Below are positions 1,621 to 22,929 of a DNA stretch of 32,021 nucleotides, piece after piece. The first letter of the stretch is position 1, and the number at the start of each line of letters is the position of its first letter. The stretch is from positions 1-32,021 of the IMG/VR virus record IMGVR_UViG_3300031951_000772; one strand, written 5' to 3'. Made by a program: the position numbers and the translations under genes. This DNA is from a virus. The notes below the pieces were generated by a model. The model searched no databases and had not been told where the DNA came from. It saw only the letters and a program-made list of their open reading frames with translations.

Positions 1621-2088
1621 CTAAGACTGCAACCCCGCCACAGCCTCCGCGCTCGCAGCCTCGTAGCTGCATGGCGGGGCGCTGAACGTGCGCGGCGTAG
1701 GGTCAACCGAGGCAACCAGCATCCCTTCCATCCAGCTTTTTAACGAGGTCATGTTCGGGCCGAGCGGCTTGCCCGCTTGCAGAAGCGCCATCTCAAAACG
1801 CTGGAGGGCGCTGACTTGCATGGGCGAGAAGTGCGTCGAAGTCCATGCTTCGGGCGAGTAGGTCGGCAACGGCGCAGGCGTTCCCGCGACCCACTGCCGC
1901 TCGACGCGATCCTCAAACCACACCACGTTTGGCTCCCATGCGCCTTGTTCGGGCTTCGGGATTTTCACCAGCGGCACAACGCTCTGGCCCTCTGGCACAT
2001 CGCGCCAGTTTCCTTCGTCATCGGTGAGCAGCGAGACGAGTTGTTGGGATGGCACAAGGCCGACTGTAATCATTGCGTTAGGTTCCAT
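1621..2088 (-). CDS. Hypothetical protein after tail fibre (possible fibre-associated protein), 155 aa
   Basis: The protein starts MEPNAMITVGLVPSQQLVSL and is rich in Pro, Trp and Val. Segments such as VPLVKIPKPEQGAWEPN and WFEDRVERQWVAGTP resemble the Pro/Trp-rich style of tail-fibre assembly or tip proteins. The C-terminal half has helical segments (MQVSALQRFEMALLQAG) and ends AVAGLQS. No enzyme motif is visible. Its start lies inside the end of the 857-residue fibre gene (11-nt overlap), which argues for translational coupling and a role with that fibre, either as chaperone or as a bound subunit. A precise family is not recognised. Confidence 0.6.
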   Translation of the reverse strand: MEPNAMITVGLVPSQQLVSLLTDDEGNWRDVPEGQSVVPLVKIPKPEQGAWEPNVVWFEDRVERQWVAGTPAPLPTYSPEAWTSTHFSPMQVSALQRFEMALLQAGKPLGPNMTSLKSWMEGMLVASVDPTPRTFSAPPCSYEAASAEAVAGLQS

Positions 2089-4651: not shown

Positions 4652-5019
4652 TAGCGCGTTACCTCCCGCGAGACTTTAGCGACCCCCTCGACCAGACGTT
4701 TTACAGCGCCAGTGGAGGATTCGATCTCAAGATCGTAGACGTAGCGGCCCGCCGTGATCGCGGACATCGAAGCCGCCGAAGCTGAAAGCGTGACTAGCCC
4801 GCCCGCCGCGGAGATGACTACGCCGCCGTTGGCCGTGGTCAGCGATAGCGCAACCGTGGCCGAGTCCGGGGTTTCGCGGAACATAGCCCTGCCGACAAAG
4901 CCCGAAAGATTTACAACAACGTCATCGCTTTTGTAGCGAAACGCCTGTGAGAGGGTCTGCCCTTGCGGCAGACACAAATCAGCTTGCGCGGGGCAGTCGC
5001 CGTAGAGGGTGTCGCTCAT
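4651..5019 (-). CDS. Tail-fibre-associated beta-rich protein, 122 aa
   Basis: The protein runs from MSDTLYGDCPAQADLCLPQG to VAKVSREVTR. The middle has a pattern I recognise from many phage tail operons: NLSGFVGRAMFRE, then a TTANGGVVIS strand, then AGRYVYDLEIESSTGAVKRL and a closing VSREVTR. Such proteins sit next to fibre genes and are thought to be small beta-sandwich connectors or appendage bases; the family has no firmly assigned role. Its start overlaps the stop of the small membrane protein as ATGA, and its stop overlaps the fibre ATG, so the three genes are translated as a unit. Confidence 0.7.
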   Translation of the reverse strand: MSDTLYGDCPAQADLCLPQGQTLSQAFRYKSDDVVVNLSGFVGRAMFRETPDSATVALSLTTANGGVVISAAGGLVTLSASAASMSAITAGRYVYDLEIESSTGAVKRLVEGVAKVSREVTR

Positions 5020-5228
5020 TTGCGTCCCCCCTGCGATCCGAAGCGATACCAGAGTTCATCGACGCGCGGGCGCATGATCTCCACATCGGAAGCAATTTCC
5101 GTCACACGCGAGTCCAGCTTGGCCGCAGACCAGACAAGTCCGATGGCCTGCAAGAGCATGGTTGCTCCGATGGTCACGCTGGCCTTGATGAGCCACGCCT
5201 TAAGTTGTTCGCGTTCTTGGTCGCTCAT
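5016..5228 (-). CDS. Small single-span membrane protein, 70 aa
   Basis: The start chosen is the ATG at 5228, whose ATGA overlaps the stop of the signal-peptide fibre gene. After a charged N-terminus (MSDQEREQLKAWLIK), one hydrophobic helix spans about residues 16-34 (SVTIGATMLLQAIGLVWSA). A heptad-like, charged C-terminus (LDSRVTEIASDVEIMRPRVD) follows. This topology is like XhlA-type or i-spanin-type small phage membrane proteins, but the gene lies between fibre genes rather than in the lysis cassette. A membrane role is well supported by sequence. Whether it acts in lysis, in injection or on the fibre cannot be told from the window. Confidence 0.65.
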   Translation of the reverse strand: MSDQEREQLKAWLIKASVTIGATMLLQAIGLVWSAAKLDSRVTEIASDVEIMRPRVDELWYRFGSQGGRK

Positions 5229-7003: not shown

Positions 7004-7006
7004 AAT

Positions 7007-8086
7007 TTAGACTTTCGCAAGTTGCAATTCGCCGTCCGGTGTCACTTCGATTGTCCACAGACCGCCGCCGCTGTCTTGAAGCTGGAAGCTCGTTGCGGTC
7101 ACGGCAGGCAGCGGCGAGGGCGAAGAGGACGTAATGAGGTCATCGGAAAGCGTTGCCGAAGTGCGGAACGTCTGGCGCACGGCCCCTTCTGCGACTTCGA
7201 CCTCGACGTTGACGGCTGTGGTTCCCGCCGAGATGAGCGAGGCGATGTTGGCCGTGCTGAAGGAAAGGTTTGCGGCGAGGCCGGGAGCGGCGGCAAGGGT
7301 GTTGCCCGCCAGCGTGACAAGCGGAAGGTCGATGCCTCCGCTGTTGTTGTTAAAGGTCAAAGTGTAGGTTTCCCCGGCAACTCCAGTAACGGAGGCCGAG
7401 GCCGACACGGCAGCGATAGCTGCTTGCATCGTGGTCGGGGAGGCGTTGTAAGCGATGCTCCCCGTGCTGATCTTGGCAAGCTGCGCCGTTCCCCCGGAGG
7501 TCGAAGTCGAGGCCGTGATTGCTGTGCCTCCCGCAGTAGTTGCCGTCTGGAAGGTCTGGCTAGTTCTGGCCGTGACGTAGTAGGCCGATCCGTTGCTGAA
7601 TCCTGTTGGCGTGGTAAATCCGGTGAGCGTGACTGCCTGCCCGTCAAAAAGTCCGTGCGGGGTCGAACAAGTAAAAACGCCCGCCGTGACGCTGGCGACA
7701 GTGACGTTGCGGGCGGGTAGTTCGATGATATAGCTGCCGCTGGTCGGCTTGGGGGAAAAGCTGATGCGCTGAACCTCGTCGGAGCCGCCGCCGCCCTCGG
7801 CGACTCCAGTGATGGTCGAAACCACGCTGGTCGAGATGGCCGACCATGCCGTTTGCAGGGCGGCGGGAGAGGTCGTGCCGACCGCGAACTTTACGGTTGC
7901 CCCAGACAGGTCAAGGTAATCATACACCCGCCCCGCCGTTGTGGATGGTTGCAGAAAATAAAGTTCAATCGCCTCGACATCTTCCTCAAAAAAGAGCGGG
8001 CTGGATGCTGGCAGGGTCGAATTAGCTCCGGACACGAATTGCCGAGCTTGAACGTCGAGGAAGAATTGCCGCGCCTGCAAAGCCAT
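7007..8086 (-). CDS. Tail/baseplate structural protein, 359 aa
   Basis: The protein opens MALQARQFFLDVQARQFVSG and is beta-rich, with low Cys content and many Thr/Ser/Ala. Residues about 129-200 contain the module FTCSTPHGLFDGQAVTLTG followed by SNGSAYYVTARTSQTF. This HGL..G..V.L..F pattern is frequent in phage tail-tip and fibre-base proteins. A late segment (TLTFNNNSGGIDLP, then PLVTLAGNTLAAAPGLAANL) suggests a second beta domain. Position between small tip genes and the long fibres supports a baseplate or fibre-anchor role. A TTGACA hexamer lies at 8103-8108, 16 nt before the ATG, and no clear Shine-Dalgarno is present. The exact role is unknown. Confidence 0.65.
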   Translation of the reverse strand: MALQARQFFLDVQARQFVSGANSTLPASSPLFFEEDVEAIELYFLQPSTTAGRVYDYLDLSGATVKFAVGTTSPAALQTAWSAISTSVVSTITGVAEGGGGSDEVQRISFSPKPTSGSYIIELPARNVTVASVTAGVFTCSTPHGLFDGQAVTLTGFTTPTGFSNGSAYYVTARTSQTFQTATTAGGTAITASTSTSGGTAQLAKISTGSIAYNASPTTMQAAIAAVSASASVTGVAGETYTLTFNNNSGGIDLPLVTLAGNTLAAAPGLAANLSFSTANIASLISAGTTAVNVEVEVAEGAVRQTFRTSATLSDDLITSSSPSPLPAVTATSFQLQDSGGGLWTIEVTPDGELQLAKV

Positions 8087-8122
8087 CTTGAGCGTCGAGG
8101 CGTGTCAAAGGTGCTGGCGGTG

Positions 8123-8308
8123 TCAGTATTGGTCGGCGCGGTCGCAGCACCCCGAAATGATCTCTCCCTCGCGGAAGCGGTCGGCTTCGCTGACGGCGTA
8201 TCCCCGGTATTTTTGGCGGATGGCTTGATAGTCTTCAAAGCTAAAGCACCACCGATCACCGTGTTTTTGCGCGACTGCTTCACAATCCTTCAAATAGGTG
8301 AGCGGCAT
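8123..8308 (-). CDS. Small hypothetical protein, 61 aa
   Basis: The start chosen is the ATG at 8308, which has AAGGCGG about 6-8 nt upstream. A GTG at 8353 that overlaps the previous stop as GTGA is a possible alternative and would add 15 residues. The protein (MPLTYLKDCEAVAQKHGDRW ... CCDRADQY) is short, charged and aromatic-rich, with a Cys pair near the C-terminus. No family is recognised. It may be a tail accessory or an unrelated small gene carried in the tail operon. Confidence 0.5.
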   Translation of the reverse strand: MPLTYLKDCEAVAQKHGDRWCFSFEDYQAIRQKYRGYAVSEADRFREGEIISGCCDRADQY

Positions 8309-8349
8309 TGTTGCCGCCTTATCCAATATCGATTTTGAGGGAATACAAA

Positions 8350-9015
8350 TCACGGCGCGGCTACATCAATGGAAATACTCAACGTGCTGGCAATGCTGTT
8401 TTCGACAGTGATCGTGCGCGACTGACCAAAAAGAGTGAAAGAAGTAGTTGCTGCTCCACTGCTCCCGTATTTGTTGCCAAAGGCTGCTCTGTAGCCGTTT
8501 ATGCCGCTCGCAGAATTTGCGTCGATGCTGAAAATAACAGATTCGCCCAATGTTGATGACGAAACGAACACAACGGGAGACTCCGTTGATGGAGATGGAC
8601 TGCTTGGTTGTCCGGGCCATCCGGTTCCGCCGTCTTGAATAAACAAACTAAAGGAACATTGTATTAAAGCAGAATACAAACCATTATTGCTATATAGCAA
8701 AAGTGTTCCGGGCACGGAACCCGTTGAAATTGGAACAATGATATTAGGGCCGCATGATGCAATAGGGTCGGTTTGAATTGTTGTGTTGATTGGCCCCGGC
8801 TGCAACGATCCAACCCCCACATTGAACTGATAGCTGACCGAAATGCCGTAAAGTTTTATTGCAGCGAAAGTAGCTTCGGAAATGACCGCAGATTGAAAAC
8901 TCGTAGGAACCCCGATGAACTGATAAAAAGAAGCAATTTCATTATTGCTGCAAAAGTTACAGCAACACGGCGTCCCGCCCGGAGTTGTCCACGGCACTTG
9001 TGTTGCGGTTGCCAT
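8350..9015 (-). CDS. Hypothetical tail-region protein with Cys cluster, 221 aa
   Basis: The N-terminus contains a striking Cys cluster, GGTPCCCNFCSNNE at residues about 13-26, which could bind metal or form disulfides. The rest is beta-rich and Ser/Thr/Gly/Ile-rich, with a Ser/Pro linker near residues 135-147 (GQPSSPSPSTESPV) and a C-terminal domain ending SISIDVAAP. The design of two beta domains joined by a linker suits a tail-tip or receptor-contact protein. It lies between two other small unknown tail genes. I do not recognise the family. Base composition is more AT-rich than its neighbours, which may point to recent acquisition. Confidence 0.6.
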   Translation of the reverse strand: MATATQVPWTTPGGTPCCCNFCSNNEIASFYQFIGVPTSFQSAVISEATFAAIKLYGISVSYQFNVGVGSLQPGPINTTIQTDPIASCGPNIIVPISTGSVPGTLLLYSNNGLYSALIQCSFSLFIQDGGTGWPGQPSSPSPSTESPVVFVSSSTLGESVIFSIDANSASGINGYRAAFGNKYGSSGAATTSFTLFGQSRTITVENSIASTLSISIDVAAP

Positions 9016-9018
9016 AGA

Positions 9019-9420
9019 TTAGGCGGGGGCGGCCCACGCCGTTCCCCACACATACATTCGTTGACCATCGCAACGCTCGACTTCGACCCATCCGGGGGTT
9101 CCACTTGGGGGTGCGTCAGACCATTTGGCTTCGTCCGCTTCGGTAATAAAAAGCGATCCATTTGGCCCCGCGCTTAAGGTGGCGTCTGTTGCGCTTTTCC
9201 ATTGTAGACCGCCTGCATCCCACGCAAGAAAGTGTGCTGCGGTAGCCTCAACAGGAAACGCTGGGTAAATATCCAACGACCAACCGTCCGCTCCTTGCGT
9301 TAAGCCGTATGTGCCATTAGTTTTGGGCTGTAACTGCGAAAAGTTGTCATCCAGATTGCGCGCGCGAATTGCAAAAGCATCTGCGTTGCCGACCTGCGGC
9401 TGAAATTTTACCAAGCTCAT
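9019..9420 (-). CDS. Small tail-tip protein, 133 aa
   Basis: The protein begins MSLVKFQPQVGNADAFAIRA. The N-terminal segment (NLDDNFSQLQPKTNG) resembles a trimeric-fibre start, and the remainder is rich in Trp, Gly, Ala and Pro. The C-terminal part GTPGWVEVERCDGQRMYVWG looks like a small receptor-binding or cap domain of the kind found at the end of phage fibres. The ATG overlaps the stop of the Gly-repeat protein as ATGA. It is probably a structural component of the tail tip, assigned by position and composition only. Confidence 0.55.
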   Translation of the reverse strand: MSLVKFQPQVGNADAFAIRARNLDDNFSQLQPKTNGTYGLTQGADGWSLDIYPAFPVEATAAHFLAWDAGGLQWKSATDATLSAGPNGSLFITEADEAKWSDAPPSGTPGWVEVERCDGQRMYVWGTAWAAPA

Positions 9421-10145
9421 ATTCTATATCCGGTCTGAATATAAACAGCAGAAACCGTTGTCGAGTTTTTAACCCGTCCTAAATTGTTCCTATACGACCT
9501 ACTCGTTGTGATTATTTGCGGCGCGATGAATCTAGATGGGTTGATGTTGCCGCGAACATTAAATATGTTGCTGGGTTGAGCAAAGTCCGACGCAGAAACT
9601 CCCGTGCCTTCGGTCGTTATGGTTTTCGCATAGTAATCAAACGAAAATGAAAAGTTTTTTGTAACAGGCGGGTCTCCTGCTACAGTTTGTGTCACCGAAC
9701 CCGTCAAAGAGCGCAAATCCGTGCTTGTCGTTACTTCGCCTGTAACTGTTGGAGTATTCCCGCCGCCTCCGCCACCTCCGCCGATTGTTGGAGTATTCCC
9801 GCCGCCTCCGCCACCTCCGCCGATTGTTGCTTCATTGTCTACTCCTAAAGACAAACGAAATGTGGTAAGTCCATAGTTTCGTTCGATATTGCAACTTTGG
9901 ACGTTTGGAGACGTTGTAGCGCGCAGGTTGTTTAACAATGCGACAAAATTGTCTTCCTGCAACAAGGCCACTGGCATAGGAGCACCCACGCGCAAAGTAG
10001 ATGCAATAGCTGAGTCAAAGCGCGTCAAACAAACAAAGTCGGCATTGATGCCAAGCGAGTTGTCGCTTTGTGCCACAATGGAGTAAGCGGTAAGCTGCAT
10101 ACCCCCGGAAGAGAGCTTTGAGTTGGCTTTGACGAGGGCGGGCAT
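9417..10145 (-). CDS. Tail-tip protein with polyglycine tandem repeat, 242 aa
   Basis: The gene directly follows the tape measure, where distal-tail or tip proteins usually lie. The first about 100 residues form an ordered beta-rich domain (LGINADFVCLTRFDSA, CNIERNYGLTTFRLSLGVD). Two copies of a 13-residue unit TIGGGGGGGGNTP follow at about 107-132, a flexible polyglycine hinge. The C-terminal domain (about 135-242) has FSFSFDYYAKTITTEGTG and ends AVYIQTGYRI. No Dit or Tal signature can be recognised. The hinge suggests two domains that must move relative to each other. Confidence 0.6.
   Translation of the reverse strand: MPALVKANSKLSSGGMQLTAYSIVAQSDNSLGINADFVCLTRFDSAIASTLRVGAPMPVALLQEDNFVALLNNLRATTSPNVQSCNIERNYGLTTFRLSLGVDNEATIGGGGGGGGNTPTIGGGGGGGGNTPTVTGEVTTSTDLRSLTGSVTQTVAGDPPVTKNFSFSFDYYAKTITTEGTGVSASDFAQPSNIFNVRGNINPSRFIAPQIITTSRSYRNNLGRVKNSTTVSAVYIQTGYRI
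9751..9828. repeat. Tandem repeat, 2 x 39 bp, in-frame polyglycine coding
   Basis: Two identical adjacent 39-bp units (9751-9789 and 9790-9828) encode the duplicated 13-residue polyglycine unit of the 242-residue tail-tip protein. A multiple of three keeps the frame, so copy number could vary without breaking the gene. Confidence 0.9.
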
Positions 10146-10147
10146 GG

Positions 10148-12283
10148 CTAGATTAGAACGGGCTGCGGAAGTTTGCGGTTGAGAGACTGAAGTTCAGTTA
10201 CAACTTTTTGCAGTGTTGTCTCGGTGGCAAAGCCGCGCACAGAGTCGGTCAGCGACTTCATGGCGTTGCGGACGCCAGATTCAAGGGCGCGGCCTGCGGC
10301 ATCGGCTTGTTTGGCAAAGGATTGCCCCGCGCCATCTGTAGCGGTTTTCAACGTATTGCCGCTGGTTGCTACTCCCTCAAAGGCGGTGACGATGGTTCCG
10401 CTGGCCGATTGGGTCTTGTCGGCGGTTGCGTTAAGAGTTTGGGCGGTTCGATCCAGCGCGGGCGCAATGCCGTCCGGGCCAGTAACGTCGAGCTTGGTCT
10501 GCGCCATGCTGGTTGCTGCTTGCGCGAGCGATTCTTTGTATTCCCTGCCCTTCTCCGCAACTTGCGTTGCGTATTCGTTGAGCCTTTGTCCCGCTTCCGC
10601 ACTGCCGAAAATGTTGCTTTTGAAACCTTCGGTTTTTGTGACGGCATCGCCCACTCCTTGAATAAGTGCGCCCGTTGCACTCTTAAACCCTTCTCCCATT
10701 GTTTGCGTTGCGCTGGTGGACATTCCCTCAAGCCCTGCCCTTGCCTTGTCGATTACGCCGCCAGCCGCTTTATCGAAATTGGTTGTGAAAGCGTCTGCTC
10801 CACTTTTTGTTCCGTCGATCAGCGCGGAAGCCAACTGGCCCGTAAAAAACCCGATTGGATTTGTCAGCACAGAGATGAAGTCTTTGCCGAAATTTACGAT
10901 CATGTCGTAAAGACGTTTTGCAAATGAGGCAACGCCTTCGCCAGTGACCGCATCCCAGATGCCTGTGAAAACGCGCAGGACACTTTCGATCATGTCCAAG
11001 AACTTCAAGTTAATCTGAGCGATTCCAAGAATAATTGCGCCTGTGAAAATCTTTCCGATACCAGCAAAAAAGTCCGCGCTTAATACTCCAAGCAATGCGC
11101 GGCCCACGGCTTCGACTGCCGTGACAAAGAACGAAAGAAAATCATCTGCCGCCTTGCGAAATGTGAAATCCAGATATCGGCTATACAGCCCAAAGATTTT
11201 TGAGGGGTCTTGCCAGATGCCAAGGGCGACATCAAAGGCGAAAGCAAATTGCTCGCCTATGCGTTTGCCGATGGAAGTGTAGTCAATGCTGTCGAAGAAG
11301 GAGCCGATGCGCTGAACATACGGCTGAAGGCTATTAATGAAAGCGTCCCACGCCGCTGTAAGCGCGGACAAAACCGGGCGGATTGCTGGCTCAAGCCCAG
11401 CCCAGACGCCTTGCAAAATCTTGTATCCTCGCTCGACCCATACGAGCATTTCAATAAGCGCATTGTTGAGGGCAATGCCGATGGCTTCGCCAAAGCCCGA
11501 AGCATCAAACTCGGCAAATCGTTTCGCCAGATTGCCAAGCAGCGTGGACATTGGCCCGACAACGCCGACCGCAAACTCTTCCGGTTTCTTCTTTAGAGCG
11601 TCGATGGCGTTGCTGAACATGGTCATCGAAGGCCCGTAGGTTTCGATAATGCGCGGAAGGCTTCCTAGAGTAGCGGCAGCTTTCGCTAGTTCTCCGTCAA
11701 AGTCTTTGATGAGCGGTAGAAGCTCGCGCCCTAGCTGTGTTCCGAAAATTGCCATTGCCGCCCTTGCCCGCTCGGCAGGGTTGGGTATGGCGTCAATCGC
11801 CTTCATTACCCTTTCCATCTGCTCGGCAGGGGAAAGGTTCTTAAGTTGGTCGAAGGAAAGGCCAAGGAGCTTGAGTTTTTCGACGGCCTTGGGAGAACCT
11901 TCTGCCGCCTTGGCAATGACTTCCTGCACCTTGTTAATCGCAGGCCCAACCTTGTCCGCGCTGCTTCCGGTCAGATCGAAGGCGCGTTGCAGGAGAATAA
12001 GTTCTGCCCTGCTCGCCCCCGTGGCCGCTTTGAGGTTGTTGAGCTTTTCAACGAAGTCGAGAGCGGTGGTAAAAGTCTTAATGCTGACAATGGTTCCAGC
12101 AACGCTTGCCGCAAATCCCGCCACTGCCGCCGCTCCTTGAGCAAACATTTGCGGGAGCATACTGGTATTCTTTTCAATGTTGGAAATGGACTGCCCGAAT
12201 CCATCAAGACGCTTTTCAAGTCCTTGGATCGTTGATCCAAGGCTTTCGTCATGCCCCAAGAAATTTGTATGGGATTCAGCCAT
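10148..12283 (-). CDS. Tail tape measure protein, 711 aa
   Basis: This protein sets tail length and is packed in the tail lumen. It is the longest helix-rich protein of the tail block. It has an N-terminal coiled-coil-like part (STIQGLEKRLDGFGQSISNI), a hydrophobic segment around residues 51-68 (AAAVAGFAASVAGTIVSI) and the tape-measure-typical stretch LVLLQRAFDLTG-like ELILLQRAFDLTG near 95-107. Several further hydrophobic and amphipathic segments follow (FFVTAVEAVGRALLGVLSAD, IFTGAIILGIAQINL). At about 0.15 nm per residue, 711 residues would imply a tail of roughly 100 nm, assuming the whole chain is a ruler. Position after the tail-chaperone genes supports the call. Confidence 0.8.
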   Translation of the reverse strand: MAESHTNFLGHDESLGSTIQGLEKRLDGFGQSISNIEKNTSMLPQMFAQGAAAVAGFAASVAGTIVSIKTFTTALDFVEKLNNLKAATGASRAELILLQRAFDLTGSSADKVGPAINKVQEVIAKAAEGSPKAVEKLKLLGLSFDQLKNLSPAEQMERVMKAIDAIPNPAERARAAMAIFGTQLGRELLPLIKDFDGELAKAAATLGSLPRIIETYGPSMTMFSNAIDALKKKPEEFAVGVVGPMSTLLGNLAKRFAEFDASGFGEAIGIALNNALIEMLVWVERGYKILQGVWAGLEPAIRPVLSALTAAWDAFINSLQPYVQRIGSFFDSIDYTSIGKRIGEQFAFAFDVALGIWQDPSKIFGLYSRYLDFTFRKAADDFLSFFVTAVEAVGRALLGVLSADFFAGIGKIFTGAIILGIAQINLKFLDMIESVLRVFTGIWDAVTGEGVASFAKRLYDMIVNFGKDFISVLTNPIGFFTGQLASALIDGTKSGADAFTTNFDKAAGGVIDKARAGLEGMSTSATQTMGEGFKSATGALIQGVGDAVTKTEGFKSNIFGSAEAGQRLNEYATQVAEKGREYKESLAQAATSMAQTKLDVTGPDGIAPALDRTAQTLNATADKTQSASGTIVTAFEGVATSGNTLKTATDGAGQSFAKQADAAGRALESGVRNAMKSLTDSVRGFATETTLQKVVTELQSLNRKLPQPVLI

Positions 12284-12290
12284 TTGTTTT

Positions 12291-13220
12291 CTAAGCGGTT
12301 CGTGCCAACTCGTAGGTCTTCTTCAGCGTCTCAGCGATGGCGATGTCCATGTAGGCGAGATAGCTTTTCCCTGCTTCATCTAGTGCCTTCTGTGCTTCTT
12401 TCGGCGGGATGACTTGGCTGGCCCACGGCGTTGCGTTGGTCATTCTCACGCCCGGATTACGAGGATCGTTGCTGTTGTCCACAATGCGCCCGGAGGCGCG
12501 GCCCATGTTCCGCGTCACCCATTGCGGGATGCCGCGCGTATTTGCGCTGACTCGCCCCGTGATCGGGATAGCTTCGGCGCAGACGGCCCACCCTGCTTTT
12601 GTGAGGCCCACCCGATCCGCTACCTTGTCTTTGTAAGCCTGCAACTCTCCATCTGCGCCTAATACTAGAACTTTTTCAACGCGCTTGCCCTTAACTGTGC
12701 CATCCACCGGATCGCGGCTGCGCTTGTGATAACCGCTGTCGAACTCATCAAAAAGGACGCGCCTAAACTTCATGTCGCGGACAATCTTGCCGATGGCAGT
12801 TGTGTTGCCGCTCTCTTGATACCTTTGAAAACGAGACTTGAAGGAGCGAATTTGATCCGACTTGTCCTTGCGGGGCTTAACATCCGAAAAGCGTTTTTCG
12901 ACTAGTGCGCGATACTCGCGCTTGTTGGCGTTGGCCGCTTGCGCCTCATACCAACGGATTGCAACGCTGGTCACTTGATTGAGGAGGGCTTCGGATTTCT
13001 CGGTGTAATAGACCTTGTTAATGTCCCGATTGACCGCGCCCATGCCTTGCGCCTCCGCCTTGGCCCCTTCCCCGAAGGGCTGCGTCCGAAATGCCAGATT
13101 GACGCAGGCAACGCGAGCATGGGCCTTGAGCGATTCGCGGATGTCCTTGCCGACTACTTGGCGAAACTCGGCCATGCGCTGCTTTAGCTGCTTGGCGTTA
13201 GAGAGGACTGTTATCTTCAT
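12291..13220 (-). CDS. Hypothetical tail-assembly protein, 309 aa
   Basis: The gene lies between the frameshifted chaperone and the tape measure. Its start is inside the last 23 bases of the frameshift product, implying coupling. The protein begins MKITVLSNAKQLKQRMAEFR, is strongly basic and helical in the first half (KREYRALVEKRFSDVKPRKD, then SDQIRSFKSRFQRYQ), and has a more compact C-terminal part (ITGRVSANTRGIPQWVTRN, ATPWASQVIPPKE). The opening helix and basic character recall minor capsid or tail-completion proteins of the HK97 gp10 type, but the similarity is not firm. I leave the function open. Confidence 0.6.
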   Translation of the reverse strand: MKITVLSNAKQLKQRMAEFRQVVGKDIRESLKAHARVACVNLAFRTQPFGEGAKAEAQGMGAVNRDINKVYYTEKSEALLNQVTSVAIRWYEAQAANANKREYRALVEKRFSDVKPRKDKSDQIRSFKSRFQRYQESGNTTAIGKIVRDMKFRRVLFDEFDSGYHKRSRDPVDGTVKGKRVEKVLVLGADGELQAYKDKVADRVGLTKAGWAVCAEAIPITGRVSANTRGIPQWVTRNMGRASGRIVDNSNDPRNPGVRMTNATPWASQVIPPKEAQKALDEAGKSYLAYMDIAIAETLKKTYELARTA

Positions 13221-14424: not shown

Positions 14425-14796
14425 TTAGAGGCTCGGATACTGCGTTGCCTCAATGGCAAAGGTCGCAAAACCCTCGGCAGTCTCTTCGCGGCTCACGGTG
14501 TCCACGATGATCGAACCGCCCGTAATGCCGTTGCCCGAAGTGGTGCTGTTGATCGAAAGGGCAACACCCGGAGCGGCGAGGGCTACTCCCGTCGAGCCAT
14601 TAACCGCGCCTTCGATGGAGATCGTTGCGGTCGGTTTGAAATACGAAACGGCAACAACGTCACCATCGTTGTCCATAACTTCAGCCTTCTCGCGGGAAAC
14701 TTCGCGGCTGAAGGACTGAATCAAAATTCCAGTTTCGGCGGTGCAACCGAAAACCACCGAAGCGGCGGCGGATGAAGTAACTGTTGTAGCGGCCAT
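14425..14796 (-). CDS. Major tail tube protein candidate, 123 aa
   Basis: This is a small beta-rich protein of about the right size for a tail tube subunit. The segment IQSFSREVSREKAEVMDNDG followed by DVVAVSYFKPTATISIEGAV is a pattern I know from phage tail-tube-type proteins: a strand, then KAE..DxxG, then a hydrophobic strand and xIxIEG. The closing part has a second sheet (TGGSIIVDTVSREETAEGFA). Position after the tail terminator and before the chaperone/tape-measure block matches lambda V. A TTGACA hexamer at 14810-14815 lies 13 nt before the ATG. Copy number is expected to be high, so strong translation is likely. Confidence 0.7.
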   Translation of the reverse strand: MAATTVTSSAAASVVFGCTAETGILIQSFSREVSREKAEVMDNDGDVVAVSYFKPTATISIEGAVNGSTGVALAAPGVALSINSTTSGNGITGGSIIVDTVSREETAEGFATFAIEATQYPSL

Positions 14797-14819: not shown

Positions 14820-15335
14820 CTAGAGCAGCAACCGGGAAACGTGGACATTGAAGGTAATCGACCGCACGGCGTGGCGATCTTGGCGCGAGGTGGTCACTCC
14901 TTGCTGGCGAACCAAGCCATGCCAGCGGACGCTATTGCGTGAGGCTGAGAGAACGTCGAACAGATGCGGGTCTTCAATGATGCCGACAATCGCCGCCCAG
15001 AGGGCATCAGTGAACTCCTCGCCTGTTTGCTGGTTCTGCGCGGAATCCTCGTCCATGTCTTGATCCATCAAGGTCATCGAATGGATCGTCACCCCTAGCT
15101 CATAGACATCCCCGGTAGGGATGGACTCGCGCAACCGGATGGCGCGAACCACTACGGCGGGAACCTCCAAGTCGCTGCCGACATCGGCGCGGGTCACGTT
15201 GACCCCTTGCAAGTCGCAATACCCGCGCAAGGCCCATGCCATCATATCGACCACGGCCTTCTCGACCGCTTCTTCAAGAGGCTCCGGGGCGCGGCGGCGG
15301 ATCGACCACTCGCTTACTGGTGCGGACTGCGGCAT
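14820..15335 (-). CDS. Tail terminator-like protein, 171 aa
   Basis: The gene sits between the head-closure-like protein and the tail tube, where gpU-like terminators lie. It has an N-terminal amphipathic helix (PEPLEEAVEKAVVDMMAWAL), strands such as VPAVVVRAIRLRES and YELGVTIHSMTLMD, a helix with GEEFTDALWAAIVGIIED and a final sheet ending VHVSRLLL. This alpha/beta order suits a terminator that caps the tail tube. I chose the ATG at 15335. A GTG at 15359 would add eight residues; both overlap the end of the upstream gene. Confidence is moderate because the call relies on order and size. Confidence 0.6.
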   Translation of the reverse strand: MPQSAPVSEWSIRRRAPEPLEEAVEKAVVDMMAWALRGYCDLQGVNVTRADVGSDLEVPAVVVRAIRLRESIPTGDVYELGVTIHSMTLMDQDMDEDSAQNQQTGEEFTDALWAAIVGIIEDPHLFDVLSASRNSVRWHGLVRQQGVTTSRQDRHAVRSITFNVHVSRLLL

Positions 15336-15637
15336 GAGAAGATAAGTTCCTGCCCGCACTGCGAGCGTTCGATGCTGATGACCCGATAGGTCTTGGTGTT
15401 GCCCGCCGAGAGAACGGAGAGCTTGCTGCCGACCTTGACCGAGCGGGTTGTTGTAGTGGACTTGGCGTGGAGGCCGATGTCGCGGGAGGGCAGGAATCCG
15501 CCTTCGTTGATGTCGCTGCCGACTGTGCCTTGCGTGACCGCAGCGGAGAAGGTCGAGGAACCAAAAGTCACCGTTGCGGGCAAGTCAGCAATGATGCTGT
15601 CTAGTTCTTCTGCGAGACGCGCCGTGTCGAGGGCCAT
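15314..15637 (-). CDS. Head-tail joining (head closure-like) protein, 107 aa
   Basis: The protein starts MALDTARLAEELDSIIADLP and is then beta-rich: ATVTFGSSTFSAAVTQGTVG, TTTTRSVKVGSKLSVLSAGN and TKTYRVISIERS. A short helix followed by a small beta barrel, at about 100 residues, is typical of head-closure or stopper proteins (gpFII / gp16 type), which plug the connector before tail attachment. It is the first morphogenesis gene after the glycosylation cassette. A TTGACA hexamer at 15653-15658 lies 15 nt before the ATG, inside the last codons of the upstream glycosyltransferase gene. Confidence 0.6.
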   Translation of the reverse strand: MALDTARLAEELDSIIADLPATVTFGSSTFSAAVTQGTVGSDINEGGFLPSRDIGLHAKSTTTTRSVKVGSKLSVLSAGNTKTYRVISIERSQCGQELIFSCRSPHQ

Positions 15638-15640: not shown

Positions 15641-16234
15641 CTAGGCCGCTTCTGTCAATGGCTTCTGTAAGGTGGTTTTTGCGCTGTCGAATTGGTAGCG
15701 GTGCAGCACTTGCGGGATATGCGCTTCGTCTTCGGCCTCGGCCCACAGATGGCGCAGCCAGAGCACATCCTCGTTGCGACGAACTTGCGGGACGGCATAG
15801 GCGCAAGCCAACTCTCGCCGCCAGACGCACCAAAACCACGGCGGGCGTTTAGTTACTGCGCCGGGGCGAAACGGCTCAATCTCATGCCCCAAGCGGCAGT
15901 TGATTCGGCCCTCCGCGCCATCGACCACGGCCCACTGGTCGAAGGTGATAACGTCCTTGTCGGCGTCGATATTTTGCAGGACGAGTTCAAAATATCCTTC
16001 CAAGAGCAAATCATCATCATCAAGGAAAGTAATGTATTTGCCCCCCGCTGCCCGCAGGAGCTTGTTGCGGGCCTCTCCGATGCCGCACAGGAGGTTTTCC
16101 CGCATCATCACGATCTCGACAGGCTTGCCTGCCACTCGCGCCTCTAGCGACCGGAACAGAGCATTTGCCTCATTCTCCCGCGCCGTAATGGTCGGAATAA
16201 GAACAGACAGTGCGGGCGTTGGTGCGCGTTTCAT
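15641..16234 (-). CDS. GT2 family glycosyltransferase, 197 aa
   Basis: This is an A-fold glycosyltransferase that would transfer a sugar from a nucleotide sugar. It opens with the classic GT2 start ALSVLIPTITARENEANALF (residues 8-27). The metal-binding acidic motif ITFLDDDDLLLEG is at about 68-80, and the acceptor-side acidic motif is probably RRNEDVLWLRHLW near 160. The ATG at 16234 overlaps the methyltransferase stop as ATGA; the frame is open far upstream, but that part lies within the methyltransferase gene. It is short for GT2 but holds the whole catalytic core. The acceptor is unknown. Context suggests a virion protein or a sugar on the host surface. Confidence 0.8.
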   Translation of the reverse strand: MKRAPTPALSVLIPTITARENEANALFRSLEARVAGKPVEIVMMRENLLCGIGEARNKLLRAAGGKYITFLDDDDLLLEGYFELVLQNIDADKDVITFDQWAVVDGAEGRINCRLGHEIEPFRPGAVTKRPPWFWCVWRRELACAYAVPQVRRNEDVLWLRHLWAEAEDEAHIPQVLHRYQFDSAKTTLQKPLTEAA

Positions 16235-16773
16235 CGTGAAGCAATCCAGCAACGGCCTAGCGTTTCGTATGCGCCAAGGGTCGCCACGGCGGCGGCAACC
16301 TCCGGGTGCGGGATGTCGTGACCGCACAAAGTTCCCTGAGGTAGGAGCTTGGGTTTCCATGCGGCGATGTCGCGCAGGACGGCTTCGTGCGTATGCTCGC
16401 CGTCGATAAAGACCGCCCAGACGCTGCCGTCCTTGAACTTCTTCGCGGCGGCAACGCTGTCGGCTTGGATGGCCGTCACCATCTCCAACACACCTGCCTC
16501 GACCAAGGTAGCGTCGAATAAATGGCGAAAGCTCCCGCCCGCTTGCTTGGCAATGCTGGTCTGCGTTTCCTCGCTTGCGCTTCCCTTGAAGGTATCGACC
16601 GCTACAATGCGGACGTTTTGCTTGCCGTGCCGCTTTACCTCTTTGGCAAAGTAGCTGATCGAATGACCAACCCATGACCCGACCTCAACAAAGGTTGCGC
16701 CATCGGGAATCTGCTCGGCCAGTTGCGAGTAGAGGTCTGGGTAATCAAACCAGTTGGGAATGTTTGCGCTCAT
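16231..16773 (-). CDS. Class I SAM-dependent methyltransferase, 180 aa
   Basis: This is a Rossmann-fold methyltransferase of the Methyltransf_24-like group. Motif I is FVEVGSWVGHSISYF (28-42), the acidic residue after strand 2 is in VAVDTFKGS (58-66), and AVFIDGEHTHEAVLRDI (120-136) is the DGxHxYExV-type motif that follows strand 5. The last part, GTLCGHDIPHPEVAAAV, matches the GGDD-like region of this group, which often acts on sugars or small molecules and is linked to glycosyltransferases. I chose the ATG at 16773, since an earlier start would lie deep in the upstream gene. Overlaps with both neighbours suggest one modification module with the flanking glycosyltransferases. Confidence 0.8.
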   Translation of the reverse strand: MSANIPNWFDYPDLYSQLAEQIPDGATFVEVGSWVGHSISYFAKEVKRHGKQNVRIVAVDTFKGSASEETQTSIAKQAGGSFRHLFDATLVEAGVLEMVTAIQADSVAAAKKFKDGSVWAVFIDGEHTHEAVLRDIAAWKPKLLPQGTLCGHDIPHPEVAAAVATLGAYETLGRCWIASR

Positions 16774-18442
16774 AGATTTCCTTGGCCCGCTCGTATTCGG
16801 CGGGGTCGTTGCCGCGCTCGTAGGTCGCGTCCATCTTTGCCTTCCCCGCAATCGGGTGGTGGTGATGAAACGTGAGGTGCGGGGCTTCGATGATGGCCCC
16901 GGCTTTTGTGGCGCGGGCGGTTAGATCGTTGTCCGAATAGACGTTGCGGAACTCCGGGTCAAAGAGATGCCCCTGCTTTTCCAGCCAAGGGCGCGTGACG
17001 ATTGCCAAGGTGATTAGCCCGTCTTCGCGGATGCCGTCCTTCACGCGAAGGATGCGCGGGGCAAACACGTTGCTGCCAAGGGCGGCGACAATGCCTTCGT
17101 CCCATCCGCTCGGCGGCTCAAAGTCATCCGCGACTTGCACAAGGATGTCGCCAGTTGCGGCCCGCGCGGCAGCGTTCCATGCGCCGACCGAATAGCCGTC
17201 CTTTGCGGCGATTACATGGCGGAATCTCCGCAGCTTGTCCTTGGTTTCCTCGTCATCTTCGTCAATGGCGAAGATATGTTCCACGCGGAACGCATCGCTG
17301 GCGCGGGAAAGCCAAAGATTCATCGCCTGTATTGCCTGCGACCATCTTCCGCGAGTGGCGTGAAGTAGCGAGATGCGCGGCTTGCCGCCGTGTTGCAACA
17401 TGGCCGATTCAATCTCCTTTGCCTTGGCCTCGTTGCCTGCGCTGCGGTAGGCCCATGCGAGCGTTGCGTGACCCTTCCAGCCATAAACGTCCGGGCGATG
17501 CGTCCACTCGGGGATTTTCGGCGCGTCCAGCGTAAGGCAATGCTCTGCCGTCTTTACGGCTTCTTCGGCCTGCCCTGCGTCCATTTGCAAGAGGGCCAGC
17601 AAGTGATGCGCCTCGCGGCGGGTCGGGCAGAGCTTGATCGCTTTTTGCAGCATATCCTGCCCGTGCGCGTTTTCAGCGGCGAGCAGGGCAAGGTTGAGCA
17701 GGACTTCGTAGCGATAAACGCCGTCGAGGGATTCCATGCGTAGAGCTTCCAGCCCGTAGCGCACGGCCTCCTCGCGTCTGCCTAAAAGGTAAAACTCATA
17801 GTGCAAGTAGAAGGCAAGGTGCTGCGCTTCTTGGTATCTCCACCGGAGGATATTAATGTTCCGCTCCTGTGATCCGGTTTTGCTGCCAATCGGTTCATGC
17901 ACAACCTTGATGTTGCGATTGACCCGCACCTTGAGCGATTCGCGTCCATCCTGCGCCACAGGGACGCATTTCTCATGGCATCCGTGGAACCATGCCGCCG
18001 TTCCGCTGCGGAATAGCCGCTCGCGCCAGACGGACTTGCCATGATTAGGCAGGACGTATTCGGCCAGAATCCAATCCTCTGCCGTCTCGGCGCAGGCTTT
18101 GCGGATCGTCTCGCCTGTGCCTTCGGGCAGCACATCATCACAGTCCAACCACATCAGCCAATCCGCCCCGGCTTTCATGCCTAACCGGAAGGCTTCGTTG
18201 CGAGCGGCGGCGAAGTCATCGACAAAGGGCCATGCGGCGTTTGCGGGGCTATTGAAGTATTCCCCTGTGATGCAACCGCGCTCGCGGGCAATGTCGAGGG
18301 TCGGATCGGGCGTTTGCCCGCCGATAGCGCGGACTACAACAACGGTGTCGGTGACGGAGAAGGCAGCGTCGAGGGCGCGATCAATTAGCGGCTCCTCGTT
18401 GCCTGCAATCAAGCAGACGGCAATCTTAGGATTATCTGGCAT
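16745..18442 (-). CDS. Two-domain glycosyltransferase with TPR middle (GT2-TPR-GT2-like), 565 aa
   Basis: The N-terminal GT2 domain begins KIAVCLIAGNEEPLIDRALD and has the metal motif WLMWLDCDDVLPEG (about 96-109). A helical, TPR-like middle covers about 205-350 (FYLLGRREEAVRYGLEALRM, LLALLQMDAGQAEEAVKTAE). A second glycosyltransferase-like domain starts near 354 with PRISLLHATRGRWSQAIQAM. It carries GDILVQVADDFEPPSGW (431-447) as its acidic motif and ends with NVYSDNDLTARAT and a His-rich HLTFHHHH (about 520). The product could carry out two sugar transfers on one acceptor. It is preceded by a terminator hairpin and a TTGACA hexamer (18459-18464, 16 nt from the ATG), so it starts a new unit after the capsid gene. 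Confidence 0.8.
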   Translation of the reverse strand: MPDNPKIAVCLIAGNEEPLIDRALDAAFSVTDTVVVVRAIGGQTPDPTLDIARERGCITGEYFNSPANAAWPFVDDFAAARNEAFRLGMKAGADWLMWLDCDDVLPEGTGETIRKACAETAEDWILAEYVLPNHGKSVWRERLFRSGTAAWFHGCHEKCVPVAQDGRESLKVRVNRNIKVVHEPIGSKTGSQERNINILRWRYQEAQHLAFYLHYEFYLLGRREEAVRYGLEALRMESLDGVYRYEVLLNLALLAAENAHGQDMLQKAIKLCPTRREAHHLLALLQMDAGQAEEAVKTAEHCLTLDAPKIPEWTHRPDVYGWKGHATLAWAYRSAGNEAKAKEIESAMLQHGGKPRISLLHATRGRWSQAIQAMNLWLSRASDAFRVEHIFAIDEDDEETKDKLRRFRHVIAAKDGYSVGAWNAAARAATGDILVQVADDFEPPSGWDEGIVAALGSNVFAPRILRVKDGIREDGLITLAIVTRPWLEKQGHLFDPEFRNVYSDNDLTARATKAGAIIEAPHLTFHHHHPIAGKAKMDATYERGNDPAEYERAKEIYERKHSQLV

Positions 18443-18462: not shown

Positions 18463-18493
18463 AAAAAGCAGAAACCCCGCCTCCCGGCGGGGT
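18463..18493 (-). terminator. Intrinsic terminator after the major capsid gene
   Basis: Minus-strand ACCCCGCC (18486-18493) pairs with GGCGGGGT (18474-18481) over a GGGA loop. TTCTGC and a run of five T (18463-18467) follow. It lies between the capsid gene stop and the glycosyltransferase start, so it should reduce read-through from the strongly expressed head genes. Confidence 0.75.
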
Positions 18494-18519
18494 CTCAGTG
18501 AACACAGAACAATTAGAAC

Positions 18520-19863: not shown

Positions 19864-20307
19864 TTAGAGAGTGCGGATGCCTTCGCTGCGGGCAGCGAGG
19901 TAGAAATCAGGGAAGCGGGCGATGACGGCGCGAGTCGCGGCGGAACCGCTCAGACCTTCGGCCTTCACGACTTCAAGGGCTTCAGAGAAATTGGTCGGGA
20001 CTTTCGGCTCGTCGGCTTTAGGGGCTTCGACGGCAACCGGAGCGGCAACGGGCTTCGCGCCAAAGTTAGCAACGAGGGCTTTGACTTCGGCCAACTCGGC
20101 GGCGAGCTTCGCGCTCATGTCCTCTTTGCTCTCCTCGTCCTCTTTGGATTCGTCTTCCGGTGTGATCTCGACTTCGATCTCCGGTTTCATTGCGAGAGCT
20201 TCAAACTTGGTCGTTGCTTCACCGATGAAAGCCTCAAAAGCGGAGAGACGTTCGTTGATCGGGGCAAGGGCGGCTGCGATAGCCTCGGAAAATTGCTTTT
20301 CGTCCAT
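19864..20307 (-). CDS. Nested scaffold protein from internal start, 147 aa
   Basis: An in-frame ATG at 20307 (residue 163 of the protease) begins exactly where the sequence turns from protease to helical scaffold. Upstream it has GAGAAAAAGG as a possible Shine-Dalgarno and a TTGACA hexamer at 20322-20327, 14 nt before the ATG. The same spacing occurs before eight full genes in this window. The product would serve as an independent scaffold, comparable with lambda Nu3 within C. The domain border, Shine-Dalgarno and hexamer support it; no expression data are available. Confidence 0.55.
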   Translation of the reverse strand: MDEKQFSEAIAAALAPINERLSAFEAFIGEATTKFEALAMKPEIEVEITPEDESKEDEESKEDMSAKLAAELAEVKALVANFGAKPVAAPVAVEAPKADEPKVPTNFSEALEVVKAEGLSGSAATRAVIARFPDFYLAARSEGIRTL

Positions 20308-20793
20308 AGCCTTTTTCTCGCTGTCAACCTTGGCCGAGAACAAACCCGATGGGTTCGCAGCCGGGGAATCAACGAGATCGCAAGAATAGACCTCGGTGCA
20401 GCGAGCAAACATTGTGTCGCCAACTTCTTCGTGCGAACCGGAGAAGCTAATCGAAAGACCAAACGTGTCGGGCATGAGTTGCGCCATCTCCAAGATGCGC
20501 TCAGTGGCGTCATGCGCCTTGAGAAGATAGAGGTCGGCGCGGAGTTGATCGCCGTCGATGACGAAGTTTTTCAGCGTTCCGACAATCTGGTTAAAGCCGC
20601 TAAAGTGATCCGTTTTGACCTTCAAGCCGCCCGAATACATCTCCGCTGCGGCCTTAACTTGCCGCAAAGTCTCTTCGTCCACTTGCATCCCGTGGCCGCG
20701 AGCTTCGCCCACGGTGATGACGGACACGCCGCGAATGATGGCGTTCTCGGTGTCGATCTCGCCCATGAGGGCGGCGAAGTCAGTTTTGGTCAT
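19864..20793 (-). CDS. Prohead protease with fused scaffold domain, 309 aa
   Basis: The N-terminal domain (about 20-155) is a U35-like prohead protease. His63 in KVKTDHFSGFNQI and Ser114 in FGLSISFSG are the likely catalytic pair, and CTEVYSCDLVDSPAANPSG (131-149) matches the final strand with acidic residue and LVD.PA.P motif. From residue 163 (MDEKQFSEAIAAALAPINER) the protein becomes helical, acidic and Ala/Glu/Lys-rich, as scaffold domains are. An acidic linker lies near 213-224 (PEDESKEDEESKED). In lambda the protease C-terminus is also made separately as scaffold. A TTGACA hexamer at 20807-20812 is 13 nt before the ATG, and a terminator-like hairpin precedes it. Confidence 0.8.
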   Translation of the reverse strand: MTKTDFAALMGEIDTENAIIRGVSVITVGEARGHGMQVDEETLRQVKAAAEMYSGGLKVKTDHFSGFNQIVGTLKNFVIDGDQLRADLYLLKAHDATERILEMAQLMPDTFGLSISFSGSHEEVGDTMFARCTEVYSCDLVDSPAANPSGLFSAKVDSEKKAMDEKQFSEAIAAALAPINERLSAFEAFIGEATTKFEALAMKPEIEVEITPEDESKEDEESKEDMSAKLAAELAEVKALVANFGAKPVAAPVAVEAPKADEPKVPTNFSEALEVVKAEGLSGSAATRAVIARFPDFYLAARSEGIRTL

Positions 20794-21078: not shown

Positions 21079-22929
21079 TCAGTCTTTCTTGTCAGCGGCG
21101 TCCATTTGCTCGACTCGCGCTCTAGCCCATGACTGCCCAGAGTCGCCGCCCCAAAGAAGCCAAGCGATCTTTCCCGCGCTAGGATAGCCCTGCTCGCCGG
21201 GGCTAAAACCCTTGCCCTGCTTATCGACTTCATGCCGCGCAAAATAGCTGTGCATCCGCTTCACTGTATCGGGCGAAAGGTTCATGCGGTTAGAAAGATC
21301 ACGCGCACGGGCAACGCCGACTTCCGTGCCGCCGCGCCCGTGTTCTTCGCGCAGGGCAAGGCCACGCTTGGCTTCTGCGGCCATCGCGGCAGTCGGCTTG
21401 AAATTGATGTGCGCGTATTTGCCCGGAACGCTAAAGGAGGACTCGGCTTGCGGCTCGGCTTGAACGGGCGATTCAATCGGCGCAGCGTTCGGATCGGTCG
21501 CAACGCTCTCCACGCCTGCGCTGATTTGCTGCGGCAGGATTTCCATCTCCTGCGAAAGCTCGTTGATGTAGGCCGCTTCCTTGGCCCGCTGGCGCATCGA
21601 AGCCTGCCAATCGTGACCCGCCTCGCCGTAAAGCTCGGCGGCGGTGGTAAGGCCCATGCGCCAAAGCTCAATATCGGCGCGGGCATCGCGGCCTGCGTCA
21701 ATGCTGACTGATCCCGGCCATTGCCATTGACCAAGGGCAACTTCGGGGCGGTTGGGCAGGATGCGCTTGGCCGCTGCGTCGAGGAGGGCAAGGCGCACCA
21801 CGCGATTGAGAAACTGCGCCTCTAGCTGACTGCGCCAATACTCAAAGGTTCGCTCGGCTTGGCGAAGGTCTTTGCGGGCCTCCGGGCCTGCGCTAGAGCG
21901 ATCAAGGACTACGCGAGCCGATGTGCCGATAGCGCGACACATTCTGTCTTCCAAGTAGCGGACAAAGTTGGCAAAGGCTTGCGCGGGGCGGTTGTTGTTG
22001 CTGAACACCTCCATTGACTCGCCTGTGTTCAAATAATTCACGCGCCCCGGCTCCAAGGCGGTCAGCTTGATCTCGTTGCCGAATTGATCGCGCTCGCCGC
22101 GCAAGACCGAAGCAAGTTCCTCGTCCGCGCCGTATTCGGTGCGAACGATTCCTGCTTGGCTCGACGCCCATCTCGCCGCCAATTTCTCGTATTCAATCAG
22201 ATCGGCAACGTCTTGTGCGTCATTGAGGACGGGGGCAAGGACGGAGCGGCCCCGGTATTCGTCTGAGCGGGTGAAGTTTGCAATGTGGCAGAAGTTCGCG
22301 GCGTCGATCTCCTCAAAGTCGAGGTATTGCCCGCTGCGGTTGCGCTGGTAGACGCGATACTTGACCGGACGCCCCTTGCCGTCGATCAGCACTCCGCCGA
22401 TATAGGCTTGGTCGTTTAGCTCAAGGTCGATGTCCCTGCCGATTCGGTCGGCGGTTACGGTCTGAAGTTTTAGATCGTCGCCATCGCGCACGATGATGAC
22501 GCCGCAATCGCCGTCCACCATGACGGAGCGGAAAACCAGTTGCGTAAGGCAAAGGAGCGAATGGCGTCCGGTGATGTCGCAGTTGTTGAACCAGCCGTTA
22601 AGGTAAGACTCAACATCTTGGTCGAGGGCGGTGTCGCCAGTGCGGGCTTGGTAGGCAAGCGATCCTGCGGTGTGAATGACGAAATGGGTCAATATCGCCC
22701 GGACTGTGCTGAAATTATCGTCTAGGTCGCGGGCGCGATTCATCAGTCGGATGCGCTCGGTAGTTCCCCCGATCTGCTCGGCAGGCATATTCATCCGCGC
22801 CTGCGGACGGGCGCGGGTGATCTTGGCCGCATCGAAGCGGCTGAAGGCCGTTAGTTTCTGGCGGGCAACCTCGCGCTGCAAGGCGGCTCGCGGACTGAAC
22901 AAGGCAATCGTCTGGTCGATTAGGTTCAT
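21079..22929 (-). CDS. Portal protein (lambda gpB family) with extra C-terminal module, 616 aa
   Basis: This would form the dodecameric portal at the capsid vertex through which DNA enters and leaves. Residues 1 to about 490 follow the lambda portal family: RARDLDDNFSTVRAILTHFV near 66-85, VFRSVMVDGDCGVIIVRDGD, a crown/stem region with RQAERTFEYWRSQLEAQFLN near 357-376, and the WQWPG strand. After a linker (about 490-515) comes a module with KRGLALREEHGRGG, RARDLSNRMNLSPDTVKRMH, SYFARHEVDKQGKG and AGKIAWLLWGGD (about 530-600). That module occurs in other phage head proteins and is not part of lambda gpB. The gene follows gpW directly (TAGATG). Confidence 0.88.
   Translation of the reverse strand: MNLIDQTIALFSPRAALQREVARQKLTAFSRFDAAKITRARPQARMNMPAEQIGGTTERIRLMNRARDLDDNFSTVRAILTHFVIHTAGSLAYQARTGDTALDQDVESYLNGWFNNCDITGRHSLLCLTQLVFRSVMVDGDCGVIIVRDGDDLKLQTVTADRIGRDIDLELNDQAYIGGVLIDGKGRPVKYRVYQRNRSGQYLDFEEIDAANFCHIANFTRSDEYRGRSVLAPVLNDAQDVADLIEYEKLAARWASSQAGIVRTEYGADEELASVLRGERDQFGNEIKLTALEPGRVNYLNTGESMEVFSNNNRPAQAFANFVRYLEDRMCRAIGTSARVVLDRSSAGPEARKDLRQAERTFEYWRSQLEAQFLNRVVRLALLDAAAKRILPNRPEVALGQWQWPGSVSIDAGRDARADIELWRMGLTTAAELYGEAGHDWQASMRQRAKEAAYINELSQEMEILPQQISAGVESVATDPNAAPIESPVQAEPQAESSFSVPGKYAHINFKPTAAMAAEAKRGLALREEHGRGGTEVGVARARDLSNRMNLSPDTVKRMHSYFARHEVDKQGKGFSPGEQGYPSAGKIAWLLWGGDSGQSWARARVEQMDAADKKD

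Follow-up and report, generated by a model that had tools for sequence, protein, structure and literature searches.

The virus record IMGVR_UViG_3300031951_000772 from IMG/VR, 32,021 bases analysed here as a whole and called the window, carries on its minus strand three intact open reading frames (ORFs) behind the major capsid gene: a two-domain glycosyltransferase (GT1), a class I methyltransferase (MT) and a single-domain family-2 glycosyltransferase (GT2). The trio is tightly linked, as GT1 and MT overlap by 29 nt and MT and GT2 by 4 nt (ATGA), and the stop codon of GT2 lies 3 nt ahead of the start of the next gene (Table 1). We rejected a chance string of ORFs, because comparison of the window with the relative L003 indicated purifying selection (dN/dS 0.16 for GT1, 0.27 for MT and 0.07 for GT2) and the genes are conserved in relatives. 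An initial annotation, made from the letters of the DNA, had described such an overlapping trio between capsid and connector genes, and this layout was confirmed: the capsid side is supported by a major head protein match, and the connector side by position. The putative connector gene itself gave no Pfam or PHROG match; its label is taken from its position and from head-closure matches at the equivalent place in distant loci.

GT1 consists of an N-terminal GT-A domain (residues ~1-190), TPR-like helices (~190-352) and a C-terminal GT-A domain (~353-565). Two stretches of the protein match PF00535 Glycos_transf_2 (7e-11), and among the PHROG families residues 5-354 match phrog_13126 (5e-27) and residues 356-558 match phrog_14945 (1e-18). 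The TPR middle part had been predicted as well; its matches stay under the Pfam cut-offs (TPR_8 20.3 bits vs 25.7), and the AlphaFold2 model (mean pLDDT 74.7) contains a helical repeat at ~190-352. The acid motifs D100-C-D-D (D100, D102, D103) and A438-D-D (D439, D440) are invariant in 14 sequences. The best PDB match by sequence (phmmer) was found for the first domain with GmaR (6.9e-5), an enzyme that glycosylates flagellin, followed by designed consensus TPR proteins, ThuS (7msk, 0.0079) and the TPR part of O-GlcNAc transferase. Regarding structure, the best Foldseek matches of GT1 were the peptide S-glycosyltransferases SunS (7msn, 5e-12) and ThuS (7msk, 1e-11), and next chondroitin polymerase, which according to an excerpt of PMC3706429 has two GT-A domains in one chain (all sources with PMC numbers are cited from excerpts). 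In its predicted fold the N-terminal half of GT1 resembles these peptide glycosyltransferases and shows the SunS-type feature of a GT-A domain with a helical-repeat fold, though with low TM-scores and a poor root mean square deviation (rmsd). SunS, ThuS and GmaR likewise have a GT-A domain and then a helical part; GT1 differs by its added second GT-A domain and by the fusion to a methyltransferase in relatives, and identity to SunS/ThuS is 14-17%. GT1 was not among the matches of the curated NCBIfam SunS model TIGR04195, and a fused distant relative of GT1 reached 1.4e-4 and 20.8 bits with this model, far below the cut-off of 350. For the C-terminal domain of the model, superposition gave WrtF (Z 17.5) and polypeptide GalNAc-transferase 2 (Z 17.2) among many other GT-A enzymes, matches that indicate its fold, not its substrate. 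When viral predicted structures were searched with GT1, glycosyltransferases of giant viruses and of uncultured tailed phages came up; those of 790 and 797 aa among the tailed-phage proteins may be fused relatives.

MT matches PF13578 Methyltransf_24 (1.4e-21, 77.8 bits, above the cut-off of 26.3), in agreement with the class I methyltransferase proposed before. The sugar-linked type that had been added to this proposal found weaker echoes, as all sugar-specific models stayed below their cut-offs (RMNT_CmcI 18.2/23.2, TylF 13.2/23, NCBIfam rhamnosyl O-methyltransferase 18.7/400 bits). By sequence MT also matches the methyltransferase 6g7d in the PDB (1e-4), and it matches phrog_2675, which is labelled 'DNA methyltransferase'; we rejected this label for MT, the domain being Methyltransf_24 by Pfam. 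GT2 matches PF00535 (2.2e-11) and phrog_14775 (9e-22), and its DDDD motif (D72-D75) is invariant in 14 GT2-type sequences, including the proteins of phages LittleE, Forza and Che8. No trans-membrane stretch was found in GT1, MT or GT2 (maximum Kyte-Doolittle value 1.33 over 19 residues).

Table 1. Features of the window around the glycosyltransferase-methyltransferase trio and along the structural genes.
Feature	Position	Strand	Match or remark
GT1, two-domain glycosyltransferase, 565 aa	16745-18442	minus	
MT, class I methyltransferase, 180 aa	16231-16773	minus	sits in exchangeable slot A
GT2, single-domain family-2 glycosyltransferase, 197 aa	15641-16234	minus	
Terminator-like hairpin	18471-18496	minus	gap between capsid gene and GT1
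Major capsid protein, 318 aa	18520-19476	minus	phrog_1005 major head protein, 3.9e-30; proposed acceptor or neighbour of the acceptor
Small head protein, 117 aa	19496-19849	minus	phrog_673, 3e-9; possible cement or decoration protein; alternative acceptor
Putative head-tail connector or closure gene	15314-15637	minus	label from position; closes the module
Protease	19864-20793	minus	
Portal	21079-22929	minus	
Terminase large subunit	27331-29142	minus	
Putative tail-tube protein	14425-14796		Ser/Thr-rich; label from position alone
Fibre-like genes	2078-7003		further along the structural gene run, beyond the trio, with the tape measure

Close relatives of the window were collected by IMG/VR scans with GT1 and with the capsid protein. 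The resulting set comprises 36 contigs with a capsid protein identity of ≥77%, in which the near-identical pairs L005/L006, L007/L008, L017/L018 and L025/L028 are counted; four contigs ending at or within the capsid gene (L031, L158, L164, L172) were dropped. A contig table assembled from several scans holds 34 contigs; L002 matches the window at 100% identity in almost every gene compared. In all 32 contigs with DNA beyond the capsid gene, GT1 follows this gene directly, and both GT1 and GT2 are present in 24/24 complete capsid-to-connector intervals (L090 included). GT1 and GT2 form a constant core, and the two places around GT2 hold interchangeable enzymes. Slot A, the gap between GT1 and GT2, is occupied by a Methyltransf_24-type protein in 9 of 27 contigs, by an FkbM-like methyltransferase in 11 (PF05050 8e-4, just below the cut-off) and by nothing in 7. 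Slot B, behind GT2, is empty in 10 of 25 contigs, carries a 305-aa glycosyltransferase-like protein in 8 (PF13524, just below the cut-off) and a Fringe-like protein in 5, and in the remaining two a second methyltransferase together with an inverted Fringe-like gene. These inverted Fringe-like genes (L025 9458-10123, L028 10921-11157) lie on the strand opposite to the whole structural operon and are ~45-53% identical to their co-directional counterparts.

Nine combinations of slots A and B occur among 25 contigs, and each slot shows at least 8 changes on a tree of three head proteins, a minimum that is valid for this tree only, which recombination may break. The capsid proteins of L005 and L007 are 99% identical with different slots A, those of L025 and L026 are 100% identical (rounded) with different slots B, and L005, L007 and L012 share a 100% identical 305-aa protein, the capsid protein of L012 being 92-93% identical to those of the other two. 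Slot exchange must therefore be recent, given the same capsid protein beside different slots and an identical 305-aa protein beside a diverged capsid protein. Such variation of the finishing enzymes over a constant capsid protein would be expected of enzymes whose substrate is a glycan, not the protein.

The distant set was obtained with the GT2 profile: among the best 80 of 150 GT2 relatives, 53 loci belong to other lineages. At 90% they form 36 clusters, of which 19 have the GT1 N-terminal domain. The GT-TPR-GT architecture stands ahead of GT2 in 31 of the 53 loci, the TPR profile of L101 being under threshold, and in 27 of these 31 the methyltransferase is fused to GT1 in one protein of ~720-860 aa, which ties MT to GT1. 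A major head protein of phrog_283/267 was present among the two nearest upstream ORFs, chosen by a length of 285-360 aa, in 31/31 distant loci with the GT1 N-terminal domain. The capsid protein of the window has no match to phrog_283/267, and the position of the module thus recurs across head-protein families. On the downstream side 22 of 41 ORFs were scanned, near-duplicates and loci without the GT1 N-terminal domain being left out, and 9 of the 22 match the head closure protein Hc1 (phrog_82).

One contig, L090, is a mosaic of the two settings (517-7774). With its phrog_283-type capsid protein and its protease it stands closer to the distant lineage, while the identities to proteins of the window lineage are 77% for its GT2 and 62% for its 305-aa protein, so finishing enzymes cross capsid types. 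In L181, a more distant capsid relative (25% identity), the module is absent and a head-tail adaptor lies directly after the capsid gene. None of the seven distant capsid relatives L175-L181 gave a match to the module profiles, some of these loci ending soon after the capsid gene. Scanning genomes with the GT1 profile yielded one short contig of a metagenome-assembled genome (MAG), L182, which is itself a phage fragment and thus names no host. The contig (JAEMTW010000194.1, 1-3487) is filed under a Thermoleophilia MAG and represents a fragment of the phage lineage of the window with head proteins and GT1; the filing is either a host hint or a binning error.

The hairpin between the capsid gene and GT1 (18496-18471) comprises 11 pairs, 8 of them G-C, followed by a T-rich tract. 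A terminator scan of the window yielded 12 sites vs 10.1 in shuffled sequences, a count that by itself is no evidence. Hairpin and T tract are found at the same place in 15/15 relatives inspected, and among seven sequences folded together two pairs were changed on both sides with the pairing kept. The initial annotation had read this element as a terminator that cuts the trio off from the capsid gene. Its presence and conservation stand, the cutting-off does not: the connector and tail genes lie downstream in the same orientation and the promoter scan gave 0 promoter-like sites vs 2.0 expected, so the hairpin is hardly a boundary. More likely it is an attenuator that lowers expression after the capsid gene and keeps capsid protein abundant.

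Isolate phages offer several partial counterparts. Neither a search of isolate phage DNA with the window nor one with its capsid protein returned any match, and the terminase large subunit has only distant isolate relatives (≤34% identity among 15 of 614 records listed). GT2 matches annotated phage proteins in direct searches, namely Forza gp93 (3e-18), LittleE gp15 (5e-15) and Che8 gp108 (2e-9, 27% identity); the GT2 profile includes rows of these three phages, and for them we count the direct-search E-values and not the profile E-values as evidence. In LittleE (cluster J) the GT2 homologue gp15 opens a glycosyltransferase cluster that lies, like the trio, exactly between the capsid gene and the connector. 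For cluster J (Omega, LittleE) an insertion of genes between major capsid and head-tail connector has been described, with several glycosyltransferases and S-adenosylmethionine (SAM) methyltransferases, some fused, and with unrelated methyltransferases at corresponding places (excerpt of PMC3706429). The insertion place and the combination of glycosyltransferases with varying methyltransferases are shared with the window lineage. The LittleE stretch differs in that the window profiles found no GT1-type, MT-type or capsid match there and in that it has a kinase-like gene in addition.

Che8 (cluster F) gp108 is a fusion of a GT2 domain with a Methyltransf_24/TylF domain, a pairing like that of MT and GT2. 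Glycosylation of the Che8 capsid has been reported (excerpts of PMC12363180, PMC11256854), as have glycosylated proteins of Che8, Corndog and Myrna with Che8 gp110 and Corndog gp38 as essential enzymes (PMC12363180, in the same excerpt). GT2 is thus homologous to a glycosyltransferase of a phage with reported virion glycans, the enzyme reported as essential being gp110 and not gp108. Unlike the trio, Che8 gp108-gp110 lie at the right genome end and not beside the capsid gene, and no GT-TPR-GT protein was found in this stretch. Corndog (cluster O) carries an O-methyltransferase and glycosyltransferases in its structural operon, proposed as capsid modifiers on the basis of under-detected capsid peptides (excerpt of PMC4351075). 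Compared by description, Corndog gp35-gp38 resemble the trio in having a methyltransferase and glycosyltransferases inside the structural operon, and differ in lying between portal and protease. As in clusters J and O, the genes of the window module are kept within or beside the head structural genes.

We consider the trio to be a virion protein-glycosylation module with swappable capping, probably acting on a head protein, and give this reading a probability of about two in three. It is favoured by the kept position, after the capsid gene in 32/32 close relatives and after a major head protein in 31/31 distant loci; the GmaR, SunS and ThuS matches of GT1 are the reason for proposing a peptide acceptor, and the GT2 homologues LittleE gp15 and Che8 gp108 provide the precedent. 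We infer the following order of steps. The N-terminal GT-A domain of GT1 would attach the initial sugar to a head-protein side chain before or during assembly, with the TPR-like helices possibly serving as a peptide-holding arm; the acceptor would most likely be the major capsid protein or the adjacent small head protein, whose match to PF09956 Phage_cement_2 (0.0057) is under the cut-off. More sugars would come from the C-terminal GT-A domain of GT1 and, after it, from GT2, and MT might O-methylate a sugar and so cap or tune the glycan. Methylation of the sugars, already suggested in the initial annotation, is possible on these grounds but would be optional, given that relatives have a different methyltransferase in this place or none. 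Glycans on one and the same capsid protein would be finished differently from one close relative to another. The terminator-like hairpin may allow an excess of capsid protein over the enzymes, and the benefit may lie in the surface properties of the particle, such as adhesion, stability or protection from proteases or binders.

Several points weigh against this reading. Glycan, acceptor and activity are predicted from the genes of the module; adjacency to head genes can also persist by co-inheritance. The capsid protein model has a pLDDT of 34.7 and is unusable for a search of the acceptor site. Full-length TM-scores of GT1 to SunS and ThuS are low (~0.27/0.35), the superposition on ThuS has an rmsd of 12.6 over 258 residues, and the C-terminal domain matches many GT-A enzymes. 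The N-terminal part of GT1 moreover matches a protein of phage PaBG named UDP-glucose lipooligosaccharide (LOS) glucosyltransferase, a name that would point to the host surface. Finally, the GT1 N-terminal domain is missing at 22 of the 53 distant GT2 loci. At these 22 loci 12 of 15 upstream ORFs were scanned (three duplicates dropped; seven loci have no ORF of the length sought), and 9 of the 12 are UvsX-like recombinases, so the tie to head genes does not extend to the GT2 family as a whole.

The PaBG name fits the main alternative, in which the enzymes alter lipopolysaccharide, capsule or wall glycans of the infected cell and thereby block superinfection or reduce the sticking of progeny to debris. 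Surface-glycan pathways commonly include family-2 glycosyltransferases and sugar methyltransferases, and swappable finishing enzymes are also compatible with a changing host surface. We regard this as unlikely, since the structural position is kept in lineages with different head proteins and the best named catalytic matches of the first GT1 domain are peptide or flagellin enzymes. The initial annotation had kept a host-surface target as its alternative; neither trans-membrane stretches, absent from the trio, nor a frequent integrase point to it. Lysogenic conversion was rejected on the same count, an integrase being above the cut-off in 1 of 15 records and below it in four more.

Less probable still is a virion target outside the head, that is the tail tube or the fibres. 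Mycobacteriophage glycans have been reported on both capsid and tail tube (excerpts of PMC12619734, PMC12363180), and a putative Ser/Thr-rich tail-tube protein is encoded nearby. Against this stands the place of the module directly after the head protein in the GT1-carrying lineages. Decoration of a virion protein had been proposed from the start, with capsid or fibres as candidates; the kept position favours the virion, and nothing links the module to the fibre-like genes. Hypermodification of DNA, with the glycosyltransferases acting on modified bases of the phage genome, is very improbable even though phage glycosyltransferases acting on DNA are known (excerpts of PMC12838424 and of PMC12619734, the latter citing Pyle 2024) and phrog_2675 carries its DNA methyltransferase name, as this name is a poor label and PF00303 (thymidylate synthase / hydroxymethylase) was found in 0/15 records, all of which may be fragments.

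Some further observations concern the surroundings of these genes. L097, L114, L119, L121, L124, L127, L129, L131 and L133 are probably the nine loci with UvsX-like recombinases; behind the recombinases stand genes of the GT2 type and of the GT1 C-domain type, at some loci as two pairs, so that these enzyme families also have another setting. In the window the two putative connector genes (14820-15637), read in different frames, share 46 nt; according to the ORF list the second begins with GTG, and an overlap is present in relatives as well. Upstream of the terminase (29124-31440) lie genes for a ParB-like protein, a C-5 cytosine DNA methylase (PF00145, 2.5e-54) and a class I methyltransferase matching a PHROG named tRNA methyltransferase. 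Within 8000-12500, which holds the tape measure and the genes behind it, the G+C content falls from ~0.59 to 0.50-0.54, and this region is also strongly diverged from L003. Searches with Rfam and ARAGORN gave no matches.

Virion glycosylation by phage enzymes, including genes beside the capsid gene, is already known, mainly from mycobacteriophages (clusters F, J, O). As far as our searches reach, the SunS-like GT-TPR-GT protein, its fusion to a methyltransferase and its repeated occurrence behind capsid proteins of two PHROG types in metagenomic phages are new, as is the combinatorial exchange in two slots while the capsid protein stays constant; the searches of the open-licence PMC literature yielded no description of such a GT-TPR-GT-methyltransferase module next to the capsid genes of phages. 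We tentatively go one step further, with somewhat less than even confidence, and suggest that the module is a 'glycotype' locus of environmental tailed phages. Here a constant core for initiation and extension, combined with two exchangeable finishing slots, would produce combinatorially varying capsid glycans on capsid proteins that are 99-100% identical, with finishing genes crossing capsid types as in L090, much like O-antigen loci among bacteria. GT1, alone or fused to the methyltransferase, would then be a glycan synthase of two or three activities with its own peptide-binding arm. Metagenomic lineages with two capsid PHROG types own mycobacteriophage-like equipment in which a putative initiator resembling protein glycosyltransferases is fused to an extender and often to a methyltransferase. 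If its product is on the particle, there would be strong natural pressure on the outer sugars of the particle outside any animal immune system, and the module may offer a compact tool for making defined glycoproteins.

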